Shown here piece by piece: positions 1,628-22,100 of a DNA stretch of 26,011 nucleotides (position 1 is its first letter; each line of letters starts with the position of its first letter). The stretch is from a virus, in the IMG/VR virus record IMGVR_UViG_3300020477_001143, positions 1 to 26,011 of that record. The stretch is one strand, 5' to 3'. The notes below the pieces were generated by a model, which was not told where the DNA came from, made no database searches, and worked only from the letters and a program-made list of their open reading frames with translations. The position numbers were made by a program, and so were the translations under genes.

Positions 1628-1890
1628 GAGATGAGATTATGATGAATCCCGAAAATGGAAATCGTTTGTTATTTGGTCAACGAGTAGAAGAAAAGTATTT
1701 TCGTAAAGGAGTTCAAAAACTGATGTATAATAAACACTATACATCATATCATTCTATACTATCTCAGTTGCTATGTTTACAGAGAACGGACCCGTTGTAT
1801 AAGGGAATAAAAATCGGAAACATCATGGTAGATAACAATTTAATTTCATTGCATGAACTAGATGCAATACTGGAGGATGAAGAAAAATGA
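1624..1890 (+). CDS. hypothetical protein coupled to the PorB gene
   Basis: 88 residues from the ATG at 1624, chosen because it forms an ATGA overlap with the previous stop and has AAGGAA five bases upstream. A longer frame starts at 1591, but that start lies deep inside the previous gene and has no ribosome-binding site. The C-terminal part (GIKIGNIMVDNNLISLHELDAILEDEE) looks like the short helical 'low-level GNILV...LIS..EL' unit seen at the N termini of type II/IV secretion ATPases (MshEN-like). The similarity is weak and may be structural only. Its stop overlaps the oxidoreductase beta start as ATGA, so the two are probably translationally coupled. Confidence 0.65.
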   Translation: MRDEIMMNPENGNRLLFGQRVEEKYFRKGVQKLMYNKHYTSYHSILSQLLCLQRTDPLYKGIKIGNIMVDNNLISLHELDAILEDEEK

Positions 1891-2858
1891 ATAATAGTAA
1901 TATTCAAATATGTGAAGACCTTCTCGACATTATGCCACCTGAATATCAGGACATGGTGGAAAATGCTACATTTAATAAGACAGATGATAGAGGATGGAGG
2001 GATGTTGGTGAGTCAAAAGAATTGATAGAACAACATTCATTATGTGCAGGATGTCCAGAGTCGATTGCATTTAGATATATACTGGCTTCCATTCCCAATC
2101 CCAAAGATACAGTTTTTGTTGGTTCCACCGGTTGTACTTCATTAGTTTTTCCCCATGTAGGTATTCAAAATATACATTCACTTTTTGGAAATCAAAACGC
2201 AATAGCCTCAGGACTTAAACGATCTCTTGCCCATAGATTTCCCGACCGAATAAAAGATGTAGTAGTTCTTGCAGGTGATGGTGCTACTGTTGATATCGGA
2301 TTGGATATGACCATGCAATCCTGGTTTCGTCAGGAGAAGTTTACTACGATTTGTTTCGATAACGAATTATATGCTAATACAGGTGGACAAGAATCTGGAC
2401 TCATGCAAAAAAGTTTTGTTGCAAAGATGGCTCCCAAGGGAAAACAATTCGATAAAGTAAACTTACCACAAATTGCATTTGAATCAGGATGTCAATATGT
2501 TGTTATTATGACAGCCTCGAAACCAAACAGAGTAGAACAAGCAATCAAGAATGCTATCTATGTTGCAAGAGAGATTGGTCCTACATACATTCAAATCTAT
2601 ACTCCGTGTATCCTTGAGATTGGAAAACAATCTATGGAAGGATTGGATGAGATGAAAGATTCTGAAACGATTGGTGGAAGGTTTGGATACAAGGAGTGGG
2701 TAACAGATGAAGCAAAAGCATTGATTGAAATGAAAAGTCAGGAAGCAAAAGAAAGAAAGAAGTTAGCTAAACAAAAAGCAAAGGAGAAAGCAAATGGAAT
2801 GGCAGCATCCAAACCAAATAAAGAGGTCAGCACCGGTTCCCTCGCATCAGTCACCTGA
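1887..2858 (+). CDS. porB: 2-oxoacid (pyruvate):ferredoxin oxidoreductase, beta subunit
   Basis: 323 residues. This is the subunit that binds thiamine pyrophosphate and the proximal [4Fe-4S] cluster of POR/KOR enzymes, which interconvert 2-oxoacid + CoA and acyl-CoA + CO2 using ferredoxin. The four expected cluster cysteines are all present: C53 and C56 (LCAGCPE), C83 (GSTGC) and C241 (YTPC). The thiamine/Mg motif is GDGATVDIG (130-138) followed by N159 and ELYANTGGQ (160-168). Family beta subunits usually end near residue 290. Here a Lys/Glu-rich tail (about 275-323) is added, and its last 65 bases overlap the next gene in another frame. The start is an ATGA overlap. The alpha subunit is 2.7 kb downstream. 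Gamma and delta subunits are not in the window. Whether the substrate is pyruvate or another 2-oxoacid cannot be settled by eye. Nothing looks broken. Confidence 0.93.
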   Translation: MNNSNIQICEDLLDIMPPEYQDMVENATFNKTDDRGWRDVGESKELIEQHSLCAGCPESIAFRYILASIPNPKDTVFVGSTGCTSLVFPHVGIQNIHSLFGNQNAIASGLKRSLAHRFPDRIKDVVVLAGDGATVDIGLDMTMQSWFRQEKFTTICFDNELYANTGGQESGLMQKSFVAKMAPKGKQFDKVNLPQIAFESGCQYVVIMTASKPNRVEQAIKNAIYVAREIGPTYIQIYTPCILEIGKQSMEGLDEMKDSETIGGRFGYKEWVTDEAKALIEMKSQEAKERKKLAKQKAKEKANGMAASKPNKEVSTGSLASVT

Positions 2859-2979
2859 AGCCGAAAAACCAAAACAGATTATTCGTGCTTTGGTTGTCGT
2901 TGGTATCATGGCTGGTATTTACTGGGTAGCAACTCGTATCTTACCAACGCTGGTAGGATTGCATTTAGTTTCTAAATAG
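2794..2979 (+). CDS. small single-pass membrane protein overlapping porB
   Basis: 61 residues, unrecognised. It starts inside the 3' end of the beta-subunit gene in a different frame, with AAGGAG at 2781-2786 seven bases upstream. The first 30 residues are polar and proline-containing. One hydrophobic segment follows (about 31-48, ALVVVGIMAGIYWVATRI), then LPTLVGLHLVSK. The strong ribosome-binding site and the membrane pattern argue it is real. It leads directly into a ribosome-binding site (AGGAGA at 2978-2983) for the Cys-rich peptide. Function unknown. It could anchor or modulate something, but nothing in the sequence says what. Confidence 0.65.
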   Translation: MEWQHPNQIKRSAPVPSHQSPEAEKPKQIIRALVVVGIMAGIYWVATRILPTLVGLHLVSK

Positions 2980-2990
2980 GAGAAAAAAAT

Positions 2991-3068
2991 ATGTGTACGA
3001 ATCCAACGTGTGAATGTAGTCCCTGTACTTGTGAAAATTGTCAGGCGGGATGTTCTTGCTGTGGATAA
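2991..3068 (+). CDS. 25-residue Cys-rich, metallothionein-like peptide
   Basis: A 25-codon frame starting MCTNPTCEC with nine cysteines (positions 2, 7, 9, 12, 14, 17, 21, 23, 24), that is 36% Cys in C-x-C, C-x2-C and CC spacings, and almost no hydrophobic residues. AGGAGA lies at 2978-2983, seven bases before the ATG. The spacing is typical of metallothioneins, which bind Zn, Cd or Cu through thiolate clusters. It could also hold or donate iron for a cluster. Its stop overlaps the GTG start of the IscA-like gene by eight bases, which suggests coupled translation. Well below usual gene-finder cut-offs, so probably unannotated in relatives. Confidence 0.72.
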   Translation: MCTNPTCECSPCTCENCQAGCSCCG

Positions 3069-3384
3069 TAAGTTTATCACAATAACTGATGAAGCACATA
3101 AAGCTATCAAAGGTTTTGTTTTAGATGATGAAGTGTTGCGCGTAGGTGTAAAGGGTGGTGGATGTTCTGGTTTGTCTTATCTTATCCAGACCGATACACT
3201 TACAGATGATAATGATTCCATCCTTGATTTCGAGGAGTTCAAAGTTGTTATAGATAATAAGAGTATGATTTATATTAAGGGAATGGAACTTGACTATACC
3301 ACGGGTCTTGAGGGAAAGGGATTTCAATTTAAGAATCCCAATGCGTCAAGTACTTGTGGATGTGGTGAAAGTTTTTCTATGTAA
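3061..3384 (+). CDS. iscA: A-type Fe-S cluster carrier (IscA/HesB family)
   Basis: 107 residues from the GTG at 3061. A-type carriers receive Fe-S clusters and pass them to apo-enzymes such as [4Fe-4S] proteins. The three ligand cysteines are present: C35 in GGGCSGLSY, and C99 and C101 in the C-terminal CGCGESF. An upstream ATG (3010) would add 17 residues but lies inside the Cys-rich peptide gene. The GTG gives exactly the usual length and the cysteine numbering of E. coli IscA (35, 99, 101), so I prefer it. The gene overlaps the Cys-rich peptide by eight bases. IscA-like genes are known in T4-like marine phages. Here the neighbour PorB needs a [4Fe-4S] cluster, so cluster loading of that enzyme is a plausible job (inference). 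Confidence 0.92.
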   Translation: MDNKFITITDEAHKAIKGFVLDDEVLRVGVKGGGCSGLSYLIQTDTLTDDNDSILDFEEFKVVIDNKSMIYIKGMELDYTTGLEGKGFQFKNPNASSTCGCGESFSM

Positions 3385-3404
3385 TTTTTTATAAGGAGTT
3401 AGTC

Positions 3405-3644
3405 ATGGCACGACCTAAAAAAGCTAGTACTAAAAAGAAGTCAACATCAACCAGAAAGAAAGTCACCATACCAAAAAAGGAGCCAATGATGATGGATATG
3501 TTAAAGGGTAAGAAGACTTATATTACGGCACTTGTTATAGGTGTTATTGCCGCAGCTGAGTCTCTTGGTTATGTGATTCCTGAATTTGTGTACCCAATGT
3601 TGGGTGCATTGGGATTAGGAACACTTCGCCACGGGATGAAATAA
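3405..3644 (+). CDS. holin-like small basic membrane protein
   Basis: 79 residues. The first 26 are extremely Lys/Arg/Ser/Thr-rich (MARPKKASTKKKSTSTRKK). Then comes a hydrophobic segment TYITALVIGVIAAAESLGYVI (about 38-58) and a second moderately hydrophobic one, PEFVYPMLGALGLGTLRHGMK (59-79). This resembles short phage membrane proteins of the form 'KKTYI...GVI...LRH' that are often annotated as holins or unknown. The ribosome-binding site AAGGAG lies at about 3391-3396. No lysis enzyme is in the window, so a holin role is only a possibility. Confidence 0.7.
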   Translation: MARPKKASTKKKSTSTRKKVTIPKKEPMMMDMLKGKKTYITALVIGVIAAAESLGYVIPEFVYPMLGALGLGTLRHGMK

Positions 3645-3650
3645 AAACAA

Positions 3651-3950
3651 ATGGCAAAAAGGCAATGGGAGATTAAAACTGTTCATGGATTTACGGAACA
3701 TGGTTCTCTTGACGAGGGACTTGGATTCACGAGGACAGGTGATGTGAAAAAAATATTAAAGGAGTATAAAGAGAATGAGGCAAATAATCTTCACACCGAG
3801 AATTATCTCCTGCTCGCAAAAGCATTTGGTACTTCTCAAGAAGTAAAGAAGATTGAAGCTATTCTAAAGAAACAAGGTTATACTTCAAATGAAGATATGG
3901 ATTGGATGTATGAGCATATCAATCCTTATTGTAAAAAGTTAATTAAATAA
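3651..3950 (+). CDS. hypothetical protein
   Basis: 99 residues, soluble, unrecognised. The sequence starts MAKRQWEIKTVHGFTEHGS and continues with charged helical segments (KKILKEYKENEANNLHTENYLLLAKAF), ending in a Trp/Tyr/Cys-containing tail (DWMYEHINPYCKKLIK). The ribosome-binding site is poor. It starts six bases after the previous stop and its TAA overlaps the next ATG by one base, so coupling to its neighbours is likely. Confidence 0.65.
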   Translation: MAKRQWEIKTVHGFTEHGSLDEGLGFTRTGDVKKILKEYKENEANNLHTENYLLLAKAFGTSQEVKKIEAILKKQGYTSNEDMDWMYEHINPYCKKLIK

Positions 3951-4489
3951 TGAAATCGTTTAAAACATTTGTAACAGAAGAAGGCGAGGGAAGAATCTAT
4001 CTGGATATGGATGGAGTTCTTGCAGATTTTATTGATGGGGTTTTAGTCCATTTTAAGAAAGACAGAAAAGACCGCACCATCACCAAAGAATTTTCAGACA
4101 TGGCCACCGAGATTCAAGATAAAAGTCGGGCAGGAGAATTGCCTGGGTTCTGGGAGAACCTGTCCGTTCTTTCTGATGGTAAGAAACTCTATCGTTATGT
4201 AGAAACTCTAAACAAAGACATATGGGTTCTTTCTTCCTGTTCGAGAGACATGAAATATTGTTTCCGAGAAAAACACAAATGGATTAAAAAACATTTCCCA
4301 AAGATTGCTTCTGAGAAAGTAATCTTAGTTGCTTCAGCAAAACATAAATCACGTTATGCTAAACCCGGTGACATTCTCATTGATGATTTTAAAAATAATA
4401 TCAAAAGATGGGAACAGGCAGGTGGAACCGGGATATGGCATAACGGGGATGCGAGTAAGACTATGAGAGAATTAAAGAAAGTATTGTAA
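3950..4489 (+). CDS. 5'(3')-deoxyribonucleotidase-like HAD phosphatase
   Basis: 179 residues. It belongs to the NT5C group of haloacid dehalogenase-like hydrolases, which remove phosphate from deoxynucleoside monophosphates. HAD motif I is DMDGVLADF (residues 19-27), with D19 the expected nucleophile and D21 the acid/base. WVLSSCS provides motif II. A downstream lysine (in SAKHKSRYAKPGD) and DILIDDF supply motifs III and IV. The GIWHNG tail end also fits the family. The protein begins MKSFKTFVTEE before the domain, a variant of the capsid-targeting-like tag, with a possible gp21-type cleavage after VTE. This start overlaps the previous stop by one base. Likely role: nucleotide turnover. If packaged, it would act right after injection (inference). 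Confidence 0.85.
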   Translation: MKSFKTFVTEEGEGRIYLDMDGVLADFIDGVLVHFKKDRKDRTITKEFSDMATEIQDKSRAGELPGFWENLSVLSDGKKLYRYVETLNKDIWVLSSCSRDMKYCFREKHKWIKKHFPKIASEKVILVASAKHKSRYAKPGDILIDDFKNNIKRWEQAGGTGIWHNGDASKTMRELKKVL

Positions 4490-4490
4490 G

Positions 4491-5006
4491 ATGACGTTTA
4501 AGGAATCTTATGATAACTTTTTAAATAATGTTAAGACAGTTAAACAATATAATATTCCATTTATTATATGGTTAATAGAAAATCCCAAGTCACCATTTCA
4601 TTTACACGGTGCAGCTAACTTACATGACCACGATATTATTCATGTGTTATTAGAATGTGGGCAGACGAATTGGGATGAAGCTTTTGTTATTGGGTTTACA
4701 ATGGGCAATGATAATAGAATAAAGAAATGGGAAGTAAAGTTGTTTAAGTTTATTTCTTATTATTTTTATCCAGAAGAAAATCGTTTTACCAAAGATGAAT
4801 TAAAAGTTTTTGATTCTGGTTTTGTTTTCGGTCGAAGTAGATATTATCCAAGGATAGCAGATTTTGATTGGGATGGGATAGATTGGAATAGGTCATTAAA
4901 CGATATTCAAGAAACTTTTGGAATACATGCTAACGAATTGAGTTATTATAAAGGTGATTATTTGAATACTAAATATAAAAAGGAACCGATGTATGAAAAC
5001 TTTTAG
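4491..5006 (+). CDS. COQ4-like protein with HDxxH-x11-E motif
   Basis: 171 residues. H47-D48-I-I-H51 followed by exactly eleven residues and E63 matches the HDxxH-x11-E metal/ligand motif that defines the COQ4 family (ubiquinone biosynthesis scaffold). The following AFVIGFTMGND resembles the helix after the motif. The rest is shorter and more divergent than cellular COQ4 (usually above 200 residues), so the assignment rests mainly on the motif. The C-terminal half is aromatic-rich (ISYYFYPEENRF, DFDWDGIDWNRS). The N terminus, MTFKESYDNF, is a degenerate version of the MKTF tag. The ATG is one base after the previous stop, and the end overlaps the next gene by 14 bases. A phage role in quinone chemistry or lipid binding is unproven. 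Confidence 0.55.
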   Translation: MTFKESYDNFLNNVKTVKQYNIPFIIWLIENPKSPFHLHGAANLHDHDIIHVLLECGQTNWDEAFVIGFTMGNDNRIKKWEVKLFKFISYYFYPEENRFTKDELKVFDSGFVFGRSRYYPRIADFDWDGIDWNRSLNDIQETFGIHANELSYYKGDYLNTKYKKEPMYENF

Positions 5007-5316
5007 TGAACTTAGATTAGAAAGTATTCGAGATGAAGTTATTGAGCTCAAGTTATATATTGAAAATGATTCTGATCTTTATCGACAAAAAATTGTACCT
5101 ATTGTTAAAAACATTCAAAGAAAAATGAAGTCTGGAAAGTATGACCATAGCAAAGCTCCGAAGCTGTGGATGTATCTTGTAGATGAAGGCGCAAAGAAAT
5201 ATTCTAAAGAATTTCCAGGAGTCAAATTTGACAAGAAAGTTAAACAGCAGGTTGCACAAGAATTTGCTGATGAGTATAAAGATGAAATTGAGGCTCAGGG
5301 AGGAAAGATGTTCTAA
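4993..5316 (+). CDS. conserved phage protein with APKLWMYLVDEGAKKY motif
   Basis: 107 residues. It begins with the tag MKTFSEL. The C-terminal half carries SKAPKLWMYLVDEGAKKYSKEF and a KKVKQQVAQEFADEY helix. I recognise this pattern from small proteins of unknown function in marine T4-like phages. A ribosome-binding site (AAAGGA at about 4979-4984) lies eight bases upstream, inside the preceding gene. Charged and helical, with no catalytic motif visible. The stop overlaps the next ATG by one base. Confidence 0.75.
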   Translation: MKTFSELRLESIRDEVIELKLYIENDSDLYRQKIVPIVKNIQRKMKSGKYDHSKAPKLWMYLVDEGAKKYSKEFPGVKFDKKVKQQVAQEFADEYKDEIEAQGGKMF

Positions 5317-5564
5317 TGAAAACTTTTAAAGAACTAAGAGAATTTAATTTCAATAAGGCAGTTAAACGTGGGTATCTTGAGAAATCAGATAAACCGATGT
5401 TTGATAAATTAATGAAAACACATAAAGTAATTTCATTTGTAGTATCGGGTGATGGATATGAATTAAAAATAAAACATAAAAAAACAGGACAGACTTGTGA
5501 CTTTGTAGGAAAGAATCCACAGGATGTTTTAAAACAAGCACATGATAAATGGTGCAAAACTTAG
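5316..5564 (+). CDS. small protein with MKTF-type N terminus
   Basis: 82 residues. It begins MKTFKELREFNFNKAV and then has a compact basic domain with strand-like segments (HKVISFVVSGDGYELKIKHKKTG) and a final helix ending DKWCKT. Unrecognised otherwise. Its start overlaps the previous stop by one base (TAATG). The end is directly followed by the strong ribosome-binding site of the alpha-subunit gene. Confidence 0.7.
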   Translation: MKTFKELREFNFNKAVKRGYLEKSDKPMFDKLMKTHKVISFVVSGDGYELKIKHKKTGQTCDFVGKNPQDVLKQAHDKWCKT

Positions 5565-5570
5565 AGGAGG
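5565..5570 (+). promoter_or_regulatory. strong Shine-Dalgarno site for porA
   Basis: AGGAGG, within GAGGAGGT, lies four bases before the ATG at 5575 and is the best ribosome-binding site seen in the window. It implies that the alpha subunit is meant to be made at a high level independent of the upstream small genes. Confidence 0.75.
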
Positions 5571-5574
5571 TTAA

Positions 5575-6858
5575 ATGACAACAGCAGTAGCAATTGAAAC
5601 TCCAAAGCCTAAGGTTAAAAATAAAGCAGCACAAACTAGAAAATCTTACGATAGAATTATTCGGTCTACCCATGAAAAATTAGAAACCAAGAATAAGATG
5701 GGTCAGACCCACACAGACGCGAATGATTTTTTCTATCGTGCAGAAAGAACTAAAAAGTTTTTTACAGGTAGTGAAGTAATACAGGCGGCAATTAAAGTAG
5801 CACATTGTGATATGTCTATTGCATATCCTATTACACCTCAATCTGAAGCAGCCTCATTAATTGGTGAGTTGTATGCAGAGGGATATGTTGGAGAATATTT
5901 TCGAGGTGAAAGTGAGTTTGCGGTAATGAGTCAATGTGCTGGTGCGGCATTTGGTGGCTCAAGAGTATTTACTACTACTGCTGGTCCTGGTACAATGAGA
6001 GCAATGGAAAATTTTCCAATGTGGGCAGGTTCACGTTTACCAATTCAAGTATGTGTGACTTGTCGAGGAATTAATTCTCCTCTTAGTATTCAACCTGATA
6101 CATTGGAAATCCATTATCTATTAGAAACGGGAATGTTGATATGGCATGCTGAAACAGCACAAGACCTGTATGATTTTATTCTTAAAGGATTTATTGTTGC
6201 AGAGCAACCAGATGTTCATGTTCCTATAGCAGTATGTTGTGATGGGTTCTTTGTTACTCATACAAAAGATACTGTTGAATTAGTTCCAGATGATTTGTGT
6301 TTGACTCCGTATGACCCATATCAAAATCCTCAACCTGTTATGGATATGGAATCAGCTCCAGTAAGAATGATGCGAGACCCGTTTGTTATGAAATCGAATT
6401 ATATTCATTATGCAACTCAAGCATCCTGGCAACAAGAAATTCATGCAGCTGTAGAACGATCAAGAAAACATACCATTCCTTTATTGGATGGATTGATTGA
6501 TGTTGAAAATCCTGGTAGAGATATTATGATTGCTTGTTCTGGTACTGCTGTATCTCAATCAAGAGAAGCAATTCGTTTATTGGAATTGGAGGGAATTGAG
6601 GTTGGACTAGTAAAGATTAAAACAATTAGACCATTTCCATTTAAAGAAGTCAGAGCAGCACTGGAACATGCTAAAAACATTTTTGTTCCAGAGTTTAATA
6701 TTAAGGGATGGTTAGCACGAGAAATTTGTGCTATACTTCCAAATAGTGATAATGTCTATAAAGGACCTCATGTTGCTGGTGGAATGACAATGCCATCCGA
6801 GGTTATTGTAGATGAAATGAAAAAAGTTTTGGGAATGAAAGTAGAGGCCCGATTATAA
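5575..6858 (+). CDS. porA: 2-oxoacid (pyruvate):ferredoxin oxidoreductase, alpha subunit
   Basis: 427 residues. This is the alpha subunit of a multi-subunit POR/KOR enzyme, carrying the substrate-binding transketolase-like domain. The family signature AYPITPQSE is at 83-91, the conserved glutamate region is RGESEFAVMSQ (110-120), and GGSRVFTTTAGPG at 127-139 follows. The C-terminal transketolase-like domain spans about 315-380 (DIMIACSGTAVSQSREAI, then TIRPFP). It lacks the ~200-residue gamma domain that is fused in two-subunit enzymes, so it needs a separate gamma subunit, and none is in the window. About 60 residues precede the domain, with a basic start (PKPKVKNKAAQTRKSYDR). The substrate loop reads INSPLSIQPDTLEIH rather than the common pyruvate-enzyme form, so substrate choice is open. 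Full length and intact. Confidence 0.93.
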   Translation: MTTAVAIETPKPKVKNKAAQTRKSYDRIIRSTHEKLETKNKMGQTHTDANDFFYRAERTKKFFTGSEVIQAAIKVAHCDMSIAYPITPQSEAASLIGELYAEGYVGEYFRGESEFAVMSQCAGAAFGGSRVFTTTAGPGTMRAMENFPMWAGSRLPIQVCVTCRGINSPLSIQPDTLEIHYLLETGMLIWHAETAQDLYDFILKGFIVAEQPDVHVPIAVCCDGFFVTHTKDTVELVPDDLCLTPYDPYQNPQPVMDMESAPVRMMRDPFVMKSNYIHYATQASWQQEIHAAVERSRKHTIPLLDGLIDVENPGRDIMIACSGTAVSQSREAIRLLELEGIEVGLVKIKTIRPFPFKEVRAALEHAKNIFVPEFNIKGWLAREICAILPNSDNVYKGPHVAGGMTMPSEVIVDEMKKVLGMKVEARL

Positions 6859-9546: not shown

Positions 9547-9957
9547 ATGGCACTATCAAATATAGCACGAGTAAGAACAAGAAAATATTCAGATATAGAT
9601 TTGGATTTTACACCACATCCTGTTACTAAGGATCTTGTTGTTAAGACAAATGAAGAAGCAGTCAAACGAGCTGTTCGTAATTTGATTTCAACAAATGCGT
9701 TTGAACGTCCATTTCATTCTGATATAGGAGGAGATGTTCGAGCCTTATTATTTGAGAATGTCGATATATTTACTGCTTCAACACTTGAAACACGAATAAG
9801 ATTTCAATTAGAAAAATATGAACCTAGAGTAGAGACACTTAATATTAATGTTTTTCCAGATATTGATGCAAATGGATTTAATGTCACATTAGAATTTTTA
9901 ATCAAGAATCTTCCGAATCCAGTAACCGTAGAAGTTTTCTTAGAGAAATTAAGGTAA
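9547..9957 (+). CDS. baseplate wedge protein gp25-like
   Basis: 136 residues. T4 gp25 is the lysozyme-fold wedge protein that links to gp6 and gp53 at the inner baseplate and helps start sheath polymerisation. Family signs are the N-terminal DIDLDFTPHPVTKDLVVKTNEEAVKRAVRNLI, the central NAFERPFHSDIGGDVRALLFE, and the strictly conserved EPR motif in KYEPRVETL (about residues 100-108). Length is normal for the family (T4: 132). The gp6 gene follows after four bases, the standard T4-like order. Confidence 0.95.
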   Translation: MALSNIARVRTRKYSDIDLDFTPHPVTKDLVVKTNEEAVKRAVRNLISTNAFERPFHSDIGGDVRALLFENVDIFTASTLETRIRFQLEKYEPRVETLNINVFPDIDANGFNVTLEFLIKNLPNPVTVEVFLEKLR

Positions 9958-9961
9958 CGAT

Positions 9962-11755
9962 ATGCCAAAGCTATCAGCGACAGAATTAGATTTTGACCAA
10001 ATAAAAACAAACCTAAAAAGTTTTTTATCGACCCAATCTCAATTTCAAGATTATGATTTTGAAGGGTCGAGTATGGCAATCATACTTGACTTGCTTGCTT
10101 ACAATACACACTATATGGCATTGCAAGCAAACTTAACTGCAAATGAAATGTTTCTTGATAGTGCAACTCTAAGAGAATCTATTGTATCACTTGCAAAACA
10201 TTTAAACTATACACCTACATCAGCAACAGCTCCTCTTGCAAAAATTAATCTTACACTTGTACCTTCTGGAAATCCAAACTCTCTTAATATAGATAGAGGA
10301 ACAAAATTCACGACAACAGTTGATAATGTTAATTATACATTTATCAATGTTGAAACATATACTATTATTCCAGATTTGCAAGGAGTCTATTCGATTAATG
10401 ATGTTGAAATCAAAGAAGGAAAGTTATTAGATTTTTCTTATACAAAAGATTCAACAGATTCACAACAACGATTTCTTATTCCAAATAAAAATGTAGATAC
10501 ATCAACGATTGCTGTCACCGTTCAAACTTCATCGACTGATACGACTACTGAGGTATGGAATAAAGCTACTGAGACAACATTAATTGCAGGAACTGATAAA
10601 GTATATTGGATACAAGAAGTTGAAGACGAAAAATGGGAAGTATATTTTGGTGATGGTACAGTTGGTAAAGCATTAACTGATGGTAATATTGTTAAGATTG
10701 ATTATCTTGTTACAAAAGGAACATTAGCTAATCTTGCATCTACTTTTAAACAAGCAACAACAGTTGCAGGATTAACTTCTGATAAGGTAACAATTACAAC
10801 TTCACAGGTTGCTTCTAATGGTGCTTTAATTCAGTCAAAAGAAGATGTAGCATTTCTCGCACCAAAATTATATTCGACACAAGGTCGAGCTGTTACTACA
10901 ACTGATTATAAAAATATTTTATTAAAAGAACGAACTGATATTGATTCGATTACAATATGGGGTGGAGAAGATGCAGAACCTAAAGCATTTGGTACTGTTA
11001 ATATTGCAATCAAACCAAATAATGCTTCTATATATTCTACAGCTATCAAAGAAGATATTGTCAATCAACTTTTGAAGAAACGAGGAGTGGTATCAATTAC
11101 TCCAGTTATTGTTGATCCAATATACACTTATATGAATATTACAACAGCAGTAAATTATGACCCTGTTGTATTAACAACAACAAGTAGTGAATTACAATCT
11201 TCAGTTGAAACAACAGTTAAAAATTATTTTGTAAATACATTAAATAAATTTGATACTAAGTTTAGACATTCTGTAATGAGTGCAAATATTGATGCTACTG
11301 ATAAAGCAATTAGAAATAACAGTACCACAGTTACAATGGAGATGGAAGCAAATCCATTAATATATTCAACGAATTATACTCATACACTTGCTTTTAATAA
11401 TGCTATCGAAGAAGGTAGTCTTTCATCTTTAAGTTTTACTGATAAGGATGGAAATACTGCATTACTTGATGATAGTTCTGGTGCAATCCGTTCTTATAAA
11501 TTAGTAGGAACATCAAAAGTTTATATTAATTCTAATGTTGGAACTATTGATTATACAACAGGTAAAGTAGTTCTTACAAATTTCTTTGCATCAGCATTAG
11601 GAAATAATGAAGCAGGAACAGTTATGACTAAACTAATTGTAAGGGCTAAACCATCTGGTTTAGATTTATTACCAGTACGAGAACAATTATTAACATTAGA
11701 TACGACACGATACGGTTCTTTAATTATAACTATACTTGCTGAGTCAACAGAATAA
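9962..11755 (+). CDS. baseplate wedge protein gp6-like (baseplate J family)
   Basis: 597 residues. gp6 forms the ring joining baseplate wedges. The N-terminal region DFDQIKTNLKSFLSTQSQFQDYDFEGSSMAIILDLLAYNTHYMALQANLTANEMFLDSA is a hallmark of phage gp6/gpJ proteins. It is followed by a beta-rich middle with VYFGDGTVGKAL (about 223-234) and a C-terminal part with RTDIDSITIWGGEDAEP. Length is slightly below T4 gp6 (660). Placed directly after gp25. Its TAA overlaps the next ATG by one base. Confidence 0.93.
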   Translation: MPKLSATELDFDQIKTNLKSFLSTQSQFQDYDFEGSSMAIILDLLAYNTHYMALQANLTANEMFLDSATLRESIVSLAKHLNYTPTSATAPLAKINLTLVPSGNPNSLNIDRGTKFTTTVDNVNYTFINVETYTIIPDLQGVYSINDVEIKEGKLLDFSYTKDSTDSQQRFLIPNKNVDTSTIAVTVQTSSTDTTTEVWNKATETTLIAGTDKVYWIQEVEDEKWEVYFGDGTVGKALTDGNIVKIDYLVTKGTLANLASTFKQATTVAGLTSDKVTITTSQVASNGALIQSKEDVAFLAPKLYSTQGRAVTTTDYKNILLKERTDIDSITIWGGEDAEPKAFGTVNIAIKPNNASIYSTAIKEDIVNQLLKKRGVVSITPVIVDPIYTYMNITTAVNYDPVVLTTTSSELQSSVETTVKNYFVNTLNKFDTKFRHSVMSANIDATDKAIRNNSTTVTMEMEANPLIYSTNYTHTLAFNNAIEEGSLSSLSFTDKDGNTALLDDSSGAIRSYKLVGTSKVYINSNVGTIDYTTGKVVLTNFFASALGNNEAGTVMTKLIVRAKPSGLDLLPVREQLLTLDTTRYGSLIITILAESTE

Positions 11756-14739
11756 TGGCACATCCAGAAAATACAAAATATCTTTCTGTCCACGTTCCAT
11801 CACAACTCCCTGAGTTTACTCGGGAAGACCATGCTACGTTTGTTTCTTTTATGGAGGCATATTTTGAATTTCTTGACCAACAAGGTGGCGCGGCCGAGAT
11901 TATTAATGCTTTATCAGATTATGCAAATATAGACAAGACTGTTGATTCTTTTGTTGACCATTTTAAAGAACAATTTTTACATGATATTCCAAATAAAGTT
12001 GTAACAGATAAAGCTTTTCTTGTAAAAAATATTAGAGAATTTTATCGTTCTCGAGGTTCTGAAAAATCATTTCAATTTCTTTTCCGAACAATGTTTCAGG
12101 AAGAAATTACGATTGACCATCCTAAAGATAATATATTAAAACCCTCTGATGGTAATTGGGTTGTTGATAAAATTATTAAAGTAAAAGAATCTGCAGGATT
12201 ATCTAAATTTGCTGGAAAAGAAATTCAAGGTAGTAATTCTAACGCAACTGCTGTTGTTGAAAATATTGTAACAATTCGAGAAAATAAATTTGATGTAACT
12301 GAAATGTTGATTTCAAATATTGCAGGAACATTTGAAATTGGAGAAACGATAACAGCAACGGATAATGATGGTAGCACACTTTCTACTGTTCTTGGTGGAA
12401 TGATAGGATCAGTTACAGTTGATATACCTGGAAGTAATTATTCTGTAGGACAAGTATTGGATGTTACTGGAGGTGGTGGACAATTTGGTGAAGGAAGATT
12501 ATTGCTAGAAGATACAAGTGGAATATTATTAAAAGAAGATGAGACACATATTGTAGCCGAAGAAGATTTCGGTGTTAATATGAAAGTCTCTGTTAAAGAA
12601 CTACAAGGTGGAACAATAGATTCAGTTAAAATTGTTGATGGTGGAACAGGATATAGTAAAGGAGATTATCTAACTTTAAACAATACAAATGCACTTCAAA
12701 ATGATGGTAATTCAGGTGCGTTAAGAGTATTAGAAGTTGCTGGTAGATTAAATGGAATTGCAATAGCAAATAAAGGAGAAAATTATTTAAATCCTCCTTT
12801 AGTTTCATTTACAGGTGGTGGTGGAACGGGAGCCCAGGCAATTACTAGTTTGGAAGGTGGTCCTATTTCAACGTGCTCTATATCTTATGGTGGGACAGGT
12901 TATGATGTTAATGATATTATTACATTTCATGGTGGTGGAGGATCTAGTGGACTTGGAAAAGTTTCTTCAGTAAATGCAAAAGAACAATTTATATTGGAAG
13001 ATGGAACATATTTATTTTTAGAAGATGGTGATTTACTAGCAACAGAGGCTAGTGAAGGTATTACGGGAATTACTATAACGAATGGTGGAAGTAATTATTT
13101 AACTGAACCTGAAACTACAATTACAAAAGGAACAACTAATATTCTTTTAGAAGATGGTGAAGATATTTTATTAGAGATGGATCAAGTTGAACCTTATGTA
13201 TCTGGAACAACGAGTAAATTAAATAAAGAACATTCTGGTGGAACGGGAGCAATACTTGTTCCTAATGGATGGGGGAGAGTTGGTAGGATTTATTTTGATC
13301 CTCCAAGTTTTGATGGAAAGAATTTTTCTACTGTACCAACTATTACTTTGACTAGAGTTGGAAATTCAGGGTCAGGTGCAACAGCTACAGCCACAGTTGC
13401 TGGTACTACTGGGGATGGAAAAATTTTAGAAGTGGAAATTGAAAATGCAGGTAAAGATTATATTGCTATTCCTAGTGTTGATGCAACAGGTAAAGGAAAT
13501 GGTAATGCTTCTATTACATTAGGTTCAACAACTATCGGTGGTATTCGATTACTTAGTATAGGTCGTCCTGGATTTAATGTTACCAAACCACCTATCATAG
13601 ATGCTTCTGGGTTTGGTGATGGTAATTCAAAAATATCATCAACTGCAGCTGCACAATTTACAGTTGGTGATGGACATTGGGAAGGAACTAAAAGTTTTGT
13701 TTCACATGACCAATATATTCAAGATAGTAATTTTTATCAGATATATTCTTATGTTATTAATCATGGTGGACAGACAGCAGAGTTCTGGAGAGATACAGTA
13801 AAACGAGTATTACATCCTGCAGGTTTTAATTTATTTTCACAGATTGATGTTTTAAGTGAGATGGGATTACCACTCACTACAATGTCAATACGAGCACCAG
13901 AAAGATTTCACGACCTTCCAGGAGAACCAGAAGGTGTCGCAGAAGATGTCGGATTAATTCTTGTTCTCATGTTCAATCTTGCAAATACGTTTGATACTTC
14001 TTCTACAATAGATTTCTCTACAGGTGAACCAAACACGACAATAATATTTGTTCCGGGTGCAGGAACATTTCAAATTGGTGAAACAATTACATTTTCAAAT
14101 GGAACAACAGTAACAATAGTAGATATTACAGAAGATGGACTTGTTATTGATGATAGTACATTATCAGGTCCTTTACCAGATGAAGGAACATCTGTTACAG
14201 GAAATACATCTGGTGCTTCTGGAACTATTGCAGAATTTAAGAAACCATCTTCTCTTATTACAGCCAAACGTAGACTTGGGCCATCATGGAGAACAATCGA
14301 CTATCAAAAATTCTTTACTACTGCAGGATTTTCTAATAAAGAACGATTTCCAATGGAAATTGAAAATGATGGTACAACAAGGATGGAGTTAGAAGGTCAA
14401 TATCGCAATCCATATGAATTGAATCTAGAGCTTGTATCTCAAAGTGCTACTCCACAATGGCCGACAACACATACTTATAGATTAACAGAAAAGATTTTAT
14501 TAGAAGATGGTAGTTATATTTTATCAGAAGTACATCAACCGGGTGATTTAATATTGTTTGAAGATGGAGATATTCCAGTAATGGAACATCAGGGAGATGC
14601 TAGTGGAAGTTATACTATTAATGATTTTAAAGATATTGTTCTTGCAAAAATCATTGATGATAGTGGACGAACTAGAAATAATACGAGAAAACGTATGACA
14701 TCTGAAAGTTATATAACTTTTCATCCTTATTCTCCGTAA
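11755..14739 (+). CDS. baseplate structural protein in the gp7 position
   Basis: 994 residues, close to T4 gp7 (1032) and in the gp7 place between gp6 and gp8. The N-terminal ~130 residues (PSQLPEFTREDHATFVSFMEAYFEFLDQ, then NIREFYRSRGSEKSFQFLFRTMF) match the large structural protein found here in T4-like cyanophages. From about residue 185 it is built of repeats: GTFEIGETIT (191) and GTFQIGETITF (770); Gly-rich 'GGTGY...PP.ITFTGGGG.GA' units (about 300-640); and LLEDG/FLEDG units (near 248, 422, 468 and 920). The C terminus returns to ordinary sequence (FHPYSP). True homology to T4 gp7 is likely by position but cannot be shown by eye. A late promoter box follows. Confidence 0.8.
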   Translation: MAHPENTKYLSVHVPSQLPEFTREDHATFVSFMEAYFEFLDQQGGAAEIINALSDYANIDKTVDSFVDHFKEQFLHDIPNKVVTDKAFLVKNIREFYRSRGSEKSFQFLFRTMFQEEITIDHPKDNILKPSDGNWVVDKIIKVKESAGLSKFAGKEIQGSNSNATAVVENIVTIRENKFDVTEMLISNIAGTFEIGETITATDNDGSTLSTVLGGMIGSVTVDIPGSNYSVGQVLDVTGGGGQFGEGRLLLEDTSGILLKEDETHIVAEEDFGVNMKVSVKELQGGTIDSVKIVDGGTGYSKGDYLTLNNTNALQNDGNSGALRVLEVAGRLNGIAIANKGENYLNPPLVSFTGGGGTGAQAITSLEGGPISTCSISYGGTGYDVNDIITFHGGGGSSGLGKVSSVNAKEQFILEDGTYLFLEDGDLLATEASEGITGITITNGGSNYLTEPETTITKGTTNILLEDGEDILLEMDQVEPYVSGTTSKLNKEHSGGTGAILVPNGWGRVGRIYFDPPSFDGKNFSTVPTITLTRVGNSGSGATATATVAGTTGDGKILEVEIENAGKDYIAIPSVDATGKGNGNASITLGSTTIGGIRLLSIGRPGFNVTKPPIIDASGFGDGNSKISSTAAAQFTVGDGHWEGTKSFVSHDQYIQDSNFYQIYSYVINHGGQTAEFWRDTVKRVLHPAGFNLFSQIDVLSEMGLPLTTMSIRAPERFHDLPGEPEGVAEDVGLILVLMFNLANTFDTSSTIDFSTGEPNTTIIFVPGAGTFQIGETITFSNGTTVTIVDITEDGLVIDDSTLSGPLPDEGTSVTGNTSGASGTIAEFKKPSSLITAKRRLGPSWRTIDYQKFFTTAGFSNKERFPMEIENDGTTRMELEGQYRNPYELNLELVSQSATPQWPTTHTYRLTEKILLEDGSYILSEVHQPGDLILFEDGDIPVMEHQGDASGSYTINDFKDIVLAKIIDDSGRTRNNTRKRMTSESYITFHPYSP

Positions 14740-14755
14740 TATGTTAAACTGCTTG

Positions 14756-14763
14756 TATAAATA
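14756..14763 (+). promoter_or_regulatory. T4-type late promoter box
   Basis: TATAAATA continuing ATATAG lies in the 59-base gap before the gp8-like gene, 35 bases before its ATG. It shares the 13-base core TATAAATAATATA with the box at 6927. This is the only clear break inside the baseplate operon. Confidence 0.65.
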
Positions 14764-14798
14764 ATATAGAAACTTATTAATTGTAAAGGAATTAGACA

Positions 14799-16154
14799 AT
14801 GCCTGGAATCATTAACAATCACTTTCGTAAGTATAATGCAGGGAATTTTATCGAAGCATTCGGTGAAACTAATCCCGATGTTATTTACCTATTTATTGGT
14901 AAAAATGATGCGTGGAGTGGAACTTCAGAGGGAGAATATGCTGGAACAGCATCGTCAGATACCGCTGCACCAACCCCGATAGATACTGTTGTTTCTGATT
15001 TCAAGCATCACGATAATATGCTCGCACTCAAAAAAGTTGCAGCTGGAGATATTAAACGAGTTATTAAACGATTAGATTGGACTACTGGTACAGTCTATGA
15101 TGAGTGGGATCATACTGTTGACGATTTTTATGATAAGAATTATTTTGTAATGACTGATAATTTTAATGTATATAAGTGTATTAGTAATAATCGTGGAGTT
15201 GCTTCAACTGTAAAACCAACTGGACAATCAACTTCCATATCAGAAATTACAGAACTTTCTGATGGATATAGGTGGAAATTTATGTATGAAGTTCCATCTG
15301 CTGATGTTGCAAAGTTTGTTACAAAAAACTGGATTCCGATTCAAACTCTTACTTCAGATAATTCGACAGCACAATGGACAGTCCAACAGGCTGCAGTAGA
15401 TGGTTCAATCGACCATATTGATGTAACAGCTGTTGGTAGTGGATATTCAGATGCTCCAACGATTACATTTACAGGTGGTGGTGGTTCTGGTGCAACAGGA
15501 ACAGCAGTAATTAATTCAAGTGGAGTTATTACTGCTATTACAATCAATAATGGTGGAGCAAGTTATACAACTCCTCCAACTATTGCAATCTCGGGTGGTG
15601 GTGGTTCTGGTGCAACAGCGTCATGTACTGTTTCTGCCGGAGCTGTAAATCAAATTACAGTTGTTGCTGGTGGAACTGGATATTCAACAGCACCAGTAAT
15701 TACTATTACTGGTGATGGTTCAAATGCACAAGCAAATGTTATTTTATCGTCTGGAACGATTGATAAAATTCGTATGACTAATATTGGAAGTGGATATAGA
15801 AACGCAACAGTAACAGTTACAGGTGGTGGTGGTTCTGGTGCAACAGGTGTAGCACGAATTGGTCCTAAAGGTGGTCACGGAAAAGATGCTGTAAACGAAC
15901 TTGGTGGATTTTATGTTATGTGTAATATAAAATTGGATGGAACTGAAGGTGGTGACTTACCAGTAGGAGATGACTTTAGAAAAATAGGATTATTATTGAA
16001 TCCTACAGTTGGTGGGTCTTTGGCAAATGCAACTACATATACAAAAGCAGAAATTGATGATAATAGTGGAGAAGTATTATATGTTGAATATCGAGCACCT
16101 ATTGTTCGTGCAACAGACCAAACAGAAGATATTAAATTAGTTGCTGAATTTTAA
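14799..16154 (+). CDS. baseplate wedge protein gp8-like with inserted Gly-rich repeats
   Basis: 451 residues against 334 for T4 gp8. The N-terminal 190 residues match gp8: NHFRKYNAGNFIEAF, then NYFVMTDNFNVYKCISNNRGVAS (about 115-137) and DGYRWKFMYEVPSADVAKFVTKNW (about 153-176). The extra length is a block at about 205-345 made of four ~39-residue Gly-rich repeats of the form G-x-G-Y-x-x-x-P-T-I-T-F-T-G-G-G-G-S-G-A-T. The tyrosines fall at 216, 256, 295 and 333. The C terminus (GGFYVMCNIKLDGTEGGDLPVGDDFRKIGLL) is gp8-like again. A ribosome-binding site AAAGGAA lies near 14785. The insert probably forms a surface-exposed beta structure. Confidence 0.9.
   Translation: MPGIINNHFRKYNAGNFIEAFGETNPDVIYLFIGKNDAWSGTSEGEYAGTASSDTAAPTPIDTVVSDFKHHDNMLALKKVAAGDIKRVIKRLDWTTGTVYDEWDHTVDDFYDKNYFVMTDNFNVYKCISNNRGVASTVKPTGQSTSISEITELSDGYRWKFMYEVPSADVAKFVTKNWIPIQTLTSDNSTAQWTVQQAAVDGSIDHIDVTAVGSGYSDAPTITFTGGGGSGATGTAVINSSGVITAITINNGGASYTTPPTIAISGGGGSGATASCTVSAGAVNQITVVAGGTGYSTAPVITITGDGSNAQANVILSSGTIDKIRMTNIGSGYRNATVTVTGGGGSGATGVARIGPKGGHGKDAVNELGGFYVMCNIKLDGTEGGDLPVGDDFRKIGLLLNPTVGGSLANATTYTKAEIDDNSGEVLYVEYRAPIVRATDQTEDIKLVAEF
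15474..15846 (+). repeat. near-identical DNA repeats encoding Gly-rich units
   Basis: The string GGTGGTGGTGGTTCTGGTGC followed by AACAG occurs three times, near 15474, 15594 and 15822, inside the gp8-like gene, spaced by about 120 and 228 bases. A fourth, diverged unit (TGATGGTTCAAATGC) sits between the last two. Identity at the DNA level points to recent duplication or recombination rather than protein-level convergence. Confidence 0.75.
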
Positions 16155-16170
16155 TTAAAGGGAATCCATA

Positions 16171-19100
16171 ATGGCAGATGTCAATTTAAATGTGAATCCA
16201 TATTATGATGATTATAGTGAAACAAAGGATTATCAGAAAGTTCTTTTTAAACCTAGTGTAGCTGTTCAAGCTAGAGAAGTAACTCAGCTGCAGACAATAT
16301 TAGAAAAGCAAGTTGAAAGACATGGAGAACATATCTTTCGTGAAGGTAGTATTGTTTCTGGAATGGAACATACTATTCAAAAAGGAATTTATTTTGCTTT
16401 AATTAAAGATACTGACCACAACAGTACTGCTGTTACGATTGCTGATTGGAAAGGAAAAACTGTTCGTGGTGAAGAATCTGGTGTTGAAGGAATTATTCAT
16501 ACTGTTGCTGATGGAACTGAAGCTACTACAATTAGTGATTCTACTGGGCCGAAAACAATATATGTAAATGTAACAAGAGCTGGAACAGATAATATATCAA
16601 GACACTTTTTTTCTTCTGAAAATTTAGTTGATACAAGTGATTCAAGTAAAAAACTTAGAGTTTTTGATAATGTAAATGGTACGATAGAATGGATGGGTTT
16701 TGGAACGCAGCTTACAATAGATGACGGAATTATTTTTGCAAAGGGAAAATTTTTAATTGTTTCAAAACAAACAATAATTGTTGCTCGTTATGACCATATG
16801 GCAACTGCAAAAGTTGGTTATAAAGTTACTGGAACTTTTATTGATTCTGCAGCTGATTCCACTTTACTTGATCCTGCTCAAGGGGCCCCAAATTTTAATG
16901 CACCCGGTGCTGATAGATTACAATATAATCTAACACTTACGACAAGAAGTCTTACCTCTACTGATTTAGAAGATTTTGTAGAATTATTTAAAATAGAAGA
17001 TGGAGTAGTTACAAAGTCTGCTTCTGTTCCTCAATATTCTGAATTAAGAAAAGAATTTGCTCGAAGAACTTTTGATGAATCAGGAGATTATACGGTCCAA
17101 CCTTTTCCAATTAGAATTAGAGAACATTTAAATGATGGAACAAATGGTGGTAGATATACTTTAGCTAATGGAGGTGACACAAATCAATTAGCAATAGGTA
17201 TTGAACCTGGTACGGCATATGTTCAAGGATTTAAACATGAAACGGGTGTAACTGAATATTTAAATTTAACTAAAGCAGTAGATACTGAAGAAATCGAAAA
17301 CCAAAAAGTTTCTGCAGCGTATGGTAATTATGTTTTATGTACTGAGGTAGTTGGTTCATTTCCTTTTGATACTCTCTCAGAAGTTAGTTTAAGAAACGCA
17401 GCTGCTAAAGCAATTACAAATACAACGTATGGTGCTGCGGCATTGCCCGGAAGTGAAATTGGTAAGGCACGAGTTCGATCTATAATTCATTCATCAGGTA
17501 CACCCGGTGCAGCTGATTGTGAATATAAATTATATTTATTTGATATAAGAATGACATCAGCTGGAAAAGATTTTTCTGATGTTCGGTGTGTTACTAATCT
17601 TTCATCTTCTAGTGATAAATATTTAGCTGATGTTAGTTTAACTGCTGCTGGTACGAATAGTAATGTTTTATATGAAGATGGCGACCAACTCTTAACTGAA
17701 GATGGTTTATTTAAATTAGTACATGAAGATTCTATTTCAGGTGAAAAAGCAGTCTTAAAAGAAACAGGAAAATTTCATAAATTAGTTTATACACTTCCAC
17801 AAAATAATATTAAAACAATTCGTGATAGTAGTGGTGATGTTGAAACATCTTACAAGTTTAGAAAAGAATTTGATGTTACATTTTCTGGTACTGGAGTAGC
17901 AACTGTTGCTACTGGTAATAGTACAGAAACATTTCCATTTTCAGTTGGTGAATTAAGTGAGACTAATAGACGCGTAAACTTTATGGTTGTTCCAACCCAA
18001 ACAAAAACTCCATTTAATACTGGCCAACCAATAGATTTTACTACTGCGGGTTCTAATGGTGCAAGAAGTATTAATATAACGACTACTACTTCTGCTACTT
18101 TAAATTGTAATGAAACATTATCTGGTGGTATGACAGCAAAAGTTATTGTTACATTAACCCGGGCCAATGCAAAAGAAGCAACTAAAAAATTAGTCAAAAA
18201 TCAACAAGTAGTTATTGCACCGACAACACATACTGCAACAACAGTCGGGCCTTGGGGTCTTGGACGAAGTGATTGTTTTATACTTAATAAAGTTTATATG
18301 TCACCGAGCACATCAACTTTACCTACATCAGCTCATACAGACGTAACATCACATTTTGAATTAGATACAGGACAAAGAGATAATTTTTATGACCACGGAC
18401 AATTAAAAAAACTTGCAAGTTCTTCTCTGTCAATTACAGGTCAACTCTTAATTGATTTTCATTATTTCACCCATGATACTTCTCAAGGTATTGGATATTT
18501 TTCTGTTGACTCTTATCCAGTTGATGATACGGGAGTAACTGCTAATACAATTAAAACATGGGAATTGCCTTTCTTTAATTCTACTACTCAAGGTCAACAA
18601 TATGATTTAAGAGATACTATTGATTGTAGACCAAGACGAACAGATACGAATACGGTAACAAACCCTGCAGCTGGTTCTACATTTGGATTTGATGTAGCAA
18701 CAGCAGGTGCTCATATGATGCACCCCAATGAATCAATCAATATGGATTTGAATTTTTATCTTCCAAGAAAAGATAAAATTGTTATAAACAAAGAAGGAAA
18801 TTTTAGTATTGTTTTAGGAACAGCAAGATTTCCTATTGCATTTGCACCGCAAGATAATTCAGAAGCATTGACACTTGGAGTAATTAAAATGCCTCCATAT
18901 CCTTCTTTACCACCTGATCTTGCAAGAAAACATAAACGACCTGGTGTTCAAATCCAAACAATAAATTCACAACGATATACTATGAAAGATATTGGACAAC
19001 TTGAACAACGTATTAATAGAATGGAATATTATACAGCTTTATCTTTATTAGAAAAAGATACTGCTGAATTGCAAATTACAAATCAACAAGGTCTTGATAG

Positions 19101-22100
19101 ATTTAAAAATGGTATTTTAGTTGATCCGTTTACGGGACATAATATCGGAGATATTACTAATCCAGATTATGCAGCTTCTATTGATATGAAAAAACAAGAA
19201 TGCCGACCTAAATTTAGATTAGAAAATACACCATTAACATTAGATGCAACAAATTCAACTACTGTTGCACGAAAACCTAAAACTGTAATCTTAACAGTTA
19301 CATCTGTTACTGGCACTTTTGTAGAAACAGAAACAGTAACAGGTGGAACTTCAAGTGCAACAGCACAAATTGTTAATCAAGTAATTACAGCAGGTAATAA
19401 AATTTATTGTGATAATCTATCAGGAACATTTGCAGCTAATGAAACTATTACTGGAAATACATCTAGTGCAACAGCTACTGTTTCTATTGTTACTGGGTCA
19501 ACAGACGGAAATTTAGTTACATTACCATATACTTCTCAAGTGTATTCACAAAATTTATTTGCATCAAAACAACGTAACTGTGTTACTGAATTATTATTTA
19601 ACTGGGTTGGTGAAATTGAATTAACTCCTGATACTGATAACTGGGTTGATACCACAAGTCGTCCTGATGTTCAAGTTAATTTTGATAATAATATGGATGC
19701 TTGGGAAGCATTGGAAGATGCGTGGGAAACACATTGGAATGATTGGGAAACTATTGCAGTTGGTGAAGAAGTTGTTTCCAGAGAACAAATTGGTGGACGA
19801 TTACGTTTAGAGGGAGCTAGAGGACAAAGAGTATTTCAACAACAAAATGAAAGAGTAACTACATTAAAAACACAACAGCAAGTTAGAAGTGGAATTGCAT
19901 TAGATATTACACCTGAAGCTATTACTCATAGACTTGGTTCTAAGGTAGTTGATGTATCTATTATTCCTTTTATTAGAGAAAAAACAATTTCATTTTCTGC
20001 AAAGAGAATGAAACCTTTTACGAGAGTATATCCATTTTTTGATGGTGAACTTGTTAGTGCGCATTGTACTCCTACTGGTGGAGCACTGGGTGCAGATTTA
20101 GTTACAGATTCAGTTGGAAATTTAACTGGAACTTTTTCTATTCCAAATAGTGATGCTTTAAAATTTAGAATAGGAGAAAGAACATTTCGATTATCTGATT
20201 CTTATGTTATTACTGCGGACGATGCAACTGGTACTACTACTAAAACCATTACAGCTGTAGGTGCAGAAAAAAATGGAACTGAAGGAATAACAACAATTGC
20301 AGAAGCGACATATACTGCTAGAGGAATATTACAATCAAAAGAAGATACTATTATTTCTACTTCAGTTGCTAATTTTCAAAAAGTAACAATGGAAGATAGT
20401 AGATTTATTGAAGAATTAACAACTACGATTAATAATACTGGTGAACGATTTGTTGGTGAAGTAGCAAATCAAGAAATTCATCATCACCATCATACTCATG
20501 TAACAAATGTTCAAGCTCCTGCTCCATCACCACCTCCTTGTCATAACGCAGGACCAAAAGAACAATCGGCCGCATTTAAGGCGCATGTACGAAGTGGTGG
20601 ACATGCTCACGCACATAGAGAAGTTTATTGTAAAAATGGACAATGGGTTGATCCTATCGCACAAACATTTCTTATTGATAGTAGTGGTGGTCTTTTTGTG
20701 TCAAAGCTGGATATTTATTTTGCTACAAAAAGTGCAACATTACCTATTACTTGTCAAATTCGTGAAGTTGTAAATGGGTTTCCTGGTGCAAGAATTATTC
20801 CTGGAGGAACAAAAACATTATTACCAGCAGATATTAATACTAGTTCAGATGCAACCGCAGCTACACCATTTTATTTTGAATCACCGGTCTATCTATCTCA
20901 TGCAAAAGAATATTGTTTTGTTCTTTTACCAGCTGGTAATAATCCAGATTATAATGTATGGGTATCTGAGCTTGGTCAGAATAAAATAGGAACAACTGAA
21001 AGAATTTCAGAACAACCTCATGCTGGAATCTTATTTACATCTGCTAATAATAGAACATGGACAGCACGTCAAGCTGAAGATATGAAATTTCAATTATATC
21101 GAGCAAAATTTGATTTAGTTGCAACAGGTGGAACTGGAATATTTGTAAATAAAAATATTGATTATTGTACTATTAATAATCTTACGGGAACGGGTAATTT
21201 TCAAAATGGAGAAGTTATTACTGGTGCAACATCTGGTGCAAAGGGAACTGTTGAAGCTTATAATAAAGCAAAATTACGATTAGATATTTTAAATACATCA
21301 GGAACATTTCAAGCAAATGAAACAATTACTGGTGGGACATCTAGTGTTTCAGCTACGTTAATTTCATTTAATGATTTTAAAGTTAATGTAATACATCCAC
21401 AAGCAGAACAAATTACTTTACATACAACACAAGTAACTTGGAGTAGTAAAACAACTTCATCTAGTAATGTTGTTGATTCAGCATTTCAATTTATTGGTAT
21501 TAATAGAAATAATACATTAAGAGATGAAAAACGAGTATTATCATATTCTAATGAGATTGCACAAATATCTTCTGCTGACAGTTTAACTTTAAAGGCTCAA
21601 TTATTTAGTGGATTTGATAGTGTATCGCCTGTAATTGATCTACGAAGATTATCTTCTATTTGTGTAGAAAATATAATTAATAATGATAGTGCAGATGAGT
21701 CACTTGCAAAAGGTGGAAACGCACTAGCTAAATATATTTCTAAACGGATTGTATTAGACGAAGATTTTGATGCAGAAGATATTAGAGTTTATATTACAGC
21801 AGATAAACCATCTGGAACTGAGGTTGAAGTGTATTATAAAATTTTAAATGGTTCAGATGAGACAGATTTTGATGACCGTCCCTATCGAAAAATGGAACAA
21901 GTTACTGATGCTACGTTATTTTCAGTTGATGTTCAAGATTTAGATGATTTTAAAGAATATGAATATAAAGTATCATCTGCTGATTTAACTGGTATTAATG
22001 GTGAAATTCAATATACAGGAACACAAACAGAAGCACCTGTATTTACTGGATTCAAAACAATGGCTATTAAACTTGTTATGTTAAGTACAACAACTTCTCT

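Follow-up and report, generated by a model that had tools for sequence, protein, structure and literature searches.

Why a T4-like phage should carry the two catalytic subunits of an enzyme complex without the partners with which they work is the question raised by porA and porB, which encode the alpha and beta subunits of a 2-oxoacid:ferredoxin oxidoreductase in the IMG/VR record IMGVR_UViG_3300020477_001143. The window analysed here is that entire record, 26,011 bases, and it is a linear fragment, so that the absence of a gene from it is silent on the rest of the phage genome. It is likely, if some way short of certain, that the pair represents the core of a host pyruvate:ferredoxin oxidoreductase (POR) of the reductive tricarboxylic acid (TCA) cycle, captured by the phage and joining host gamma, delta and epsilon subunits, where it would take the place of the host's alpha and beta or supplement them.

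Both subunits are complete, as an earlier note made from the sequence alone had held, each reading frame being open from ATG to stop. The porB ATG overlaps the stop of the preceding open reading frame (ORF; ATGA), a GGAGG ribosome-binding-like site stands just upstream of the porA ATG, and the genes, which together span 1887-6858, are separated by 2.7 kb that hold several small ORFs. Alpha matches the Pfam domains POR_N (1.8e-60), PFOR_II (9.1e-16) and Transketolase_C (3.8e-09) and beta matches TPP_enzyme_C (9.3e-18); the transketolase-like C-terminus and the YPITPQSE motif claimed for PorA are thus both present. Every phage beta in the alignment shares the four cluster cysteines of PorB (C53, C56, C83 and C241), its GDG motif (130-132) and N159, which bears out the proposed cluster ligands and thiamine motif. 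It is this combination, an alpha with POR_N and PFOR_II and a beta with the thiamine pyrophosphate (TPP) motif and four cluster cysteines, that identifies the proteins as a 2-oxoacid:ferredoxin oxidoreductase. The gamma domain PF01558 was matched in neither protein in a Pfam search of both, so that alpha, at 427 residues, lacks a fused gamma as had been stated, and tblastn (E<=1e-4) detected neither Nitrospina gamma, delta and epsilon nor a phage-type ferredoxin in the window, in agreement with the earlier note. Neither PorA nor PorB has a PHROG match, and tblastn of annotated phages returned only distant matches (<=36% identity), in unannotated records.

Searches of IMG/VR yielded 17 further contigs, and the counts that follow cover 18 contigs including the window. 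POR alpha is present in 7 of these, POR beta in 9 and the beta subunit of 2-oxoglutarate:ferredoxin oxidoreductase (OGOR) in 12, accompanied by a YfhL-type 2[4Fe-4S] ferredoxin (6 contigs, above the NCBIfam cut-off), an Nfu-type NifU domain protein (7) and an A-type iron-sulfur (Fe-S) carrier (4); the fullest cluster, alpha-beta-beta2-Nfu-ferredoxin-ErpA, is found in contig L006. The other subunits are absent from the contigs: none of the 18 has host gamma or epsilon of either type, delta or OGOR alpha (E<=1e-4), the sole OGOR-alpha matches being cross-matches to POR alpha. PF01558 likewise finds nothing in the 17 related virus records, among them contigs of 126 kb and 108 kb, and when IMG/VR was scanned with peptide patterns, twice for gamma and once for OGOR alpha, no relative was confirmed. 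The search for gamma and delta beyond the window, which had been proposed as a check and could have refuted subunit exchange, found neither in these relatives. The description of a core alone holds for the window and is incomplete for the phage family, which also carries OGOR beta, ferredoxin and Fe-S carriers.

The type of the enzyme can be read from comparison with the hosts. Host POR genes lie in the order delta (PF02552-like)-alpha-beta-gamma-epsilon, gamma following closely on beta in 74 of 78 host loci at a strict cut-off, and a paralogous cluster, alpha2-beta2-gamma2-epsilon2, stands without delta beside sucC-sucD in 4/4 hosts examined. In the Nitrospina gracilis genome POR has five subunits and OGOR lacks delta (PMC3578206), and because the gene layout matches this published genome we infer, from gene context, that the delta-bearing cluster is POR and the sucCD-linked cluster OGOR. 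At the columns that separate the two host enzymes the window alpha is POR-like in 43 of 44 and the window beta in 44 of 45, and the second betas of the phages are OGOR-type at 45/45 columns in eight of nine cases. The window enzyme is a POR, and in its type-specific residues it is that of the five-subunit POR of nitrite oxidisers, although gamma, delta and epsilon are not encoded with alpha and beta in the window and the 17 related contigs, which are possibly incomplete. Since the POR-type residues are nearly all kept, a substrate switch is not indicated, and the change of substrate that the earlier note had entertained finds no support in them.

In a scan of 84,980 genomes the nearest cellular betas were those of Nitrospinota and then Nitrospira (83-69% identity), the closest Nitrospinota betas being 73-83% identical to that of the window, with 83% over 281 residues to Nitrospinia L037. 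The phage genes nest within the host trees for both subunits; on the alpha tree the window groups with Nitrospinia L037 as its sister (100/97), a clade of four phages adjoins L039, and the phage contig L002 falls among Nitrospinaceae. The minimum number of changes that well-supported branches require is 3 for alpha, 2 for POR beta and 4 for OGOR beta, and the same subunits have been captured recurrently. Trees of both subunits had been suggested as a way to enzyme class and donor, on which the earlier account was incomplete; they indicate a Nitrospinota origin for a POR of the reductive TCA cycle, and the ancestry of these genes suggests that the phage host is a Nitrospinota nitrite oxidiser, very probably Nitrospina. 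Nitrospinota oxidise nitrite aerobically and use the reductive TCA cycle for CO2 fixation. The captured genes are intact and under purifying selection: the window keeps 181/183 near-invariant host columns in alpha and 158/163 in beta, the active site is undisturbed, and dN (nonsynonymous divergence) is below dS (synonymous divergence), with dN/dS well below 1, in every pair where dS is estimable (dN 0.016 and dS 0.38 for L002 and L056, dN 0.15 and dS 1.7 for alpha of the window and L037), dS being saturated in several pairs.

It is also clear that porA and porB lie in phage DNA. T4-type baseplate wedge PHROGs (261, 219 at 2e-164, 438 and others) occupy 9547-22146 on the same strand, downstream of porA, and together with gp23 in relatives they mark a T4-like phage. 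The relatives are identified as phage by gp23 in G001, G020 and G027, by baseplate genes in L002 and by long ORFs common to G001 and G002. POR alpha lies a few kilobases from baseplate genes in both the window and L002, and in G020 gp23 is directly followed by OGOR beta, which places the POR and OGOR genes among structural genes. That assembly joined host POR genes to phage DNA, or that the genes are accidental host cargo, would accord with their 73-83% identity to host genes and would undo a phage origin, but this account is very improbable and already contradicted: L002 is an independent contig with POR alpha 2.7 kb from homologous baseplate genes, OGOR beta adjoins gp23 in G020, the gene set recurs across many contigs, gamma and epsilon, which neighbour these genes in the host operon, are missing, a separate clade unites seven phage betas (100/99), and selection has kept the phage proteins intact. 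The T4 late-promoter motif TATAAATA gave 4 matches, which is the chance level.

The most likely and most economical explanation for the choice of subunits begins with a T4-like phage capturing the catalytic alpha-beta core of the reductive-TCA POR of its host. Phage alpha and beta would assemble with host gamma, delta and epsilon, replacing or supplementing host alpha and beta in a standing POR complex; these two, which house the TPP site and the proximal [4Fe-4S] cluster, probably wear or turn over fastest in an aerobic cell. Clusters and electrons could be supplied by the A-type carrier in the window and by Nfu and the 2[4Fe-4S] ferredoxin in relatives, and carbon fixation into pyruvate, or into 2-oxoglutarate via OGOR beta in relatives, would be kept running during infection, the phage POR presumably working in the reductive direction. 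Replacement of worn host parts is probably the role, because the phage has both catalytic subunits and none of the others. POR and OGOR of Aquifex lose 95-100% of their activity in air (PMC10052474), and since beta holds TPP and the proximal cluster, oxygen wear of alpha and beta would be a reasonable explanation for their capture. Phage subunits that no longer met gamma, delta and epsilon would be expected to drift at their interfaces, so that the conservation described above lends indirect support to assembly with host subunits, gamma included. The earlier deduction that a phage-encoded core lacking gamma and delta implies use inside a host complex is thus consistent with the lack of gamma in the related records, the assembly itself being the conjectural step.

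Several observations weigh against this explanation. No contig has been shown to be complete, and gamma could sit in unsequenced parts; the IMG/VR scans employed short peptide patterns, of which a two-sequence gamma profile yielded poor ones; some relatives have just one or two subunits, though most such contigs are short; and on the PorB tree the window sits on a long branch (0.61) and is weakly supported as sister to L037 (82/29). A full enzyme encoded elsewhere in the phage genome, or an alpha-beta pair acting alone without gamma, would make exchange with host subunits unnecessary, and the window is indeed a 26 kb fragment, and gamma-independent chemistry such as non-oxidative decarboxylation is conceivable. 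This is nonetheless distinctly unlikely, given that neither the related records, with their contigs of over 100 kb, nor the IMG/VR scans produced a gamma, and that near-invariant host positions are almost entirely kept.

The same genes could also run in the oxidative direction, converting pyruvate and 2-oxoglutarate from host amino acids into acetyl-CoA or succinyl-CoA and reduced ferredoxin for phage synthesis. POR or ferredoxin genes in G001 and G002 adjoin an aldehyde dehydrogenase, a proline dehydrogenase and a saccharopine-dehydrogenase-type protein, to which G001 adds a tyrosine phenol-lyase/tryptophanase-type lyase, and such enzymes could release pyruvate and glutamate. Their family scores fall below equivalog cut-offs, however, for which reason their substrates are unsure; none of these catabolic genes is found in the window, and the hosts employ five-subunit POR and OGOR for CO2 fixation (PMC3578206), all of which makes oxidative use unlikely.

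Maintenance of a host POR during infection may belong to a wider pattern, which is put forward tentatively and with rather more doubt than confidence: phages of nitrite oxidisers might recurrently capture POR alpha and beta and OGOR beta, together with Fe-S carriers, and omit gamma, delta and epsilon, because in aerobic organisms with the reductive TCA cycle these cluster-bearing catalytic subunits of the two CO2-fixing enzymes would be oxygen-labile spare parts for exchange into standing complexes, with some Nitrospira keeping a comparable spare cassette. A Nitrospira chromosome (CG24D; L097:7623-9843) contains a cassette, standing by itself, in which an A-type Fe-S carrier is combined with POR beta and OGOR beta, and because its genome has a second POR beta elsewhere, spare betas occur in a host too. 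L097 had been considered as a Nitrospira phage contig with both betas, and this was rejected on finding that its neighbours are ordinary chromosomal genes and that no gp23 is found in the genome. Two POR beta copies are also present in Nitrospira genomes G032 and G037.

Among known systems the closest is the five-subunit POR of the reductive TCA cycle (Nitrospina/Nitrospira, Hydrogenobacter/Aquifex), to whose Nitrospina/Nitrospira alpha and beta the phage subunits are orthologous, with type-specific residues nearly all identical and active-site and cluster motifs kept; unlike it, the phages have alpha and beta only, gamma, delta (PF02552-like) and epsilon being missing from contigs that are possibly incomplete, and in the window alpha and beta are non-adjacent. 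Reductive-TCA genes in phages of nitrite oxidisers have been known since 2020, when the T4-like Nitrospirota viruses VP_99 and VP_1723 of Lake Baikal were reported to encode a ferredoxin, a POR-beta-like ferredoxin oxidoreductase, an OGOR subunit and an Fe-S biosynthesis protein, presented as the first known auxiliary genes of dark carbon fixation, with a proposed role in the reductive TCA cycle (Coutinho et al. 2020, PMC7678222). Those phages are likewise T4-like and infect nitrite oxidisers, but their hosts are freshwater Nitrospirota, not Nitrospinota, their OGOR gene is named epsilon, and in the available part of that account no alpha-beta POR pair, missing-subunit pattern, recurrence analysis or POR/OGOR typing was found (PMC7678222). 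A virus-encoded korB (OGOR/2-oxoacid oxidoreductase beta) was described in 2025 as a carbon-fixation auxiliary gene in contaminated soils, unlike the window in its soil origin and, in the part of the report available, without mention of a POR alpha-beta pair (PMC12615777). PMC8725595, PMC11289388 and PMC10224230 offered no pertinent match. As far as the open-licence papers searched show, among which no described Nitrospina phage with these genes was found, what is new is the Nitrospinota phages themselves, an intact alpha-beta POR pair, the residue-based typing of POR and OGOR subunits, their repeated capture and the fact that gamma, delta and epsilon are consistently missing.

An analogy, in a different pathway and host, is offered by the photosystem and carbon-metabolism genes of cyanophages, in which phage copies of fast-wearing host subunits are carried and partner subunits are left to the host. 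Among marine nitrite oxidisers Nitrospina are the principal group, and they are important for CO2 fixation in the dark ocean; a phage family with the key CO2-fixing subunits of its host would tie viral infection to dark carbon fixation, as cyanophage photosystem genes tie infection to photosynthesis. Because the choice of subunits is consistent, it becomes testable which part of an aerobic POR or OGOR fails first, and how enzymes that are normally sensitive to oxygen are kept up in air.

Table 1. Coordinates of porB, porA and other annotated features of the window.
Feature	Position	Strand	Basis
porB, beta subunit of 2-oxoacid:ferredoxin oxidoreductase, 323 aa	1887..2858	+	open ATG to stop
A-type iron-sulfur carrier, ErpA/IscA/SufA family, CGCGESF motif	3010..3384	+	TIGR00049 113 bits, cut-off 58.8
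phage 5'(3')-deoxyribonucleotidase-like protein (NT5C)	3950..4489	+	phrog_2643 1.1e-31
protein without Pfam match, 171 aa	4491..5006	+	common to G001, G002, G005, L002
porA, alpha subunit, 427 aa, domains I and II only, no fused gamma	5575..6858	+	open ATG to stop
T4-type baseplate wedge subunit, PHROG 261	9547..9957	+	PHROG match
T4-type baseplate wedge subunit, gp6-like, PHROG 219	9962..11755	+	PHROG match
baseplate wedge subunit, PHROG 438	14799..16154	+	PHROG match

Homologues of the A-type carrier listed in Table 1 adjoin the ferredoxin in phage relatives L005, L006 and L011. The protein encoded at 4491-5006 has an HDHxxxHVLL motif, which we take to be COQ4-like, and recurs, frequently close to POR genes, in no fewer than five of these contigs. 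At L149:7-1171 OGOR beta stands directly downstream of a gp23 major capsid gene. The phage OGOR beta at L156:10001-10900 and L157 is divergent (64%, OGOR-type at 41/45 columns); by eye it resembles the cassette beta of the Nitrospira chromosome L097, and its source is possibly a Nitrospira phage akin to the Lake Baikal ones. In the 126 kb relative (L003:4850-11613) the ferredoxin is followed by genes for an aldehyde dehydrogenase, a tyrosine phenol-lyase/tryptophanase-type lyase, a proline dehydrogenase and a saccharopine-dehydrogenase-type protein, an amino-acid-metabolism set that is unusual for a phage. Small proteins resembling cyclic-nucleotide-binding domains, as judged by eye, are encoded in the same phage neighbourhoods (L011:13236-13589 and L006:16123-16458).

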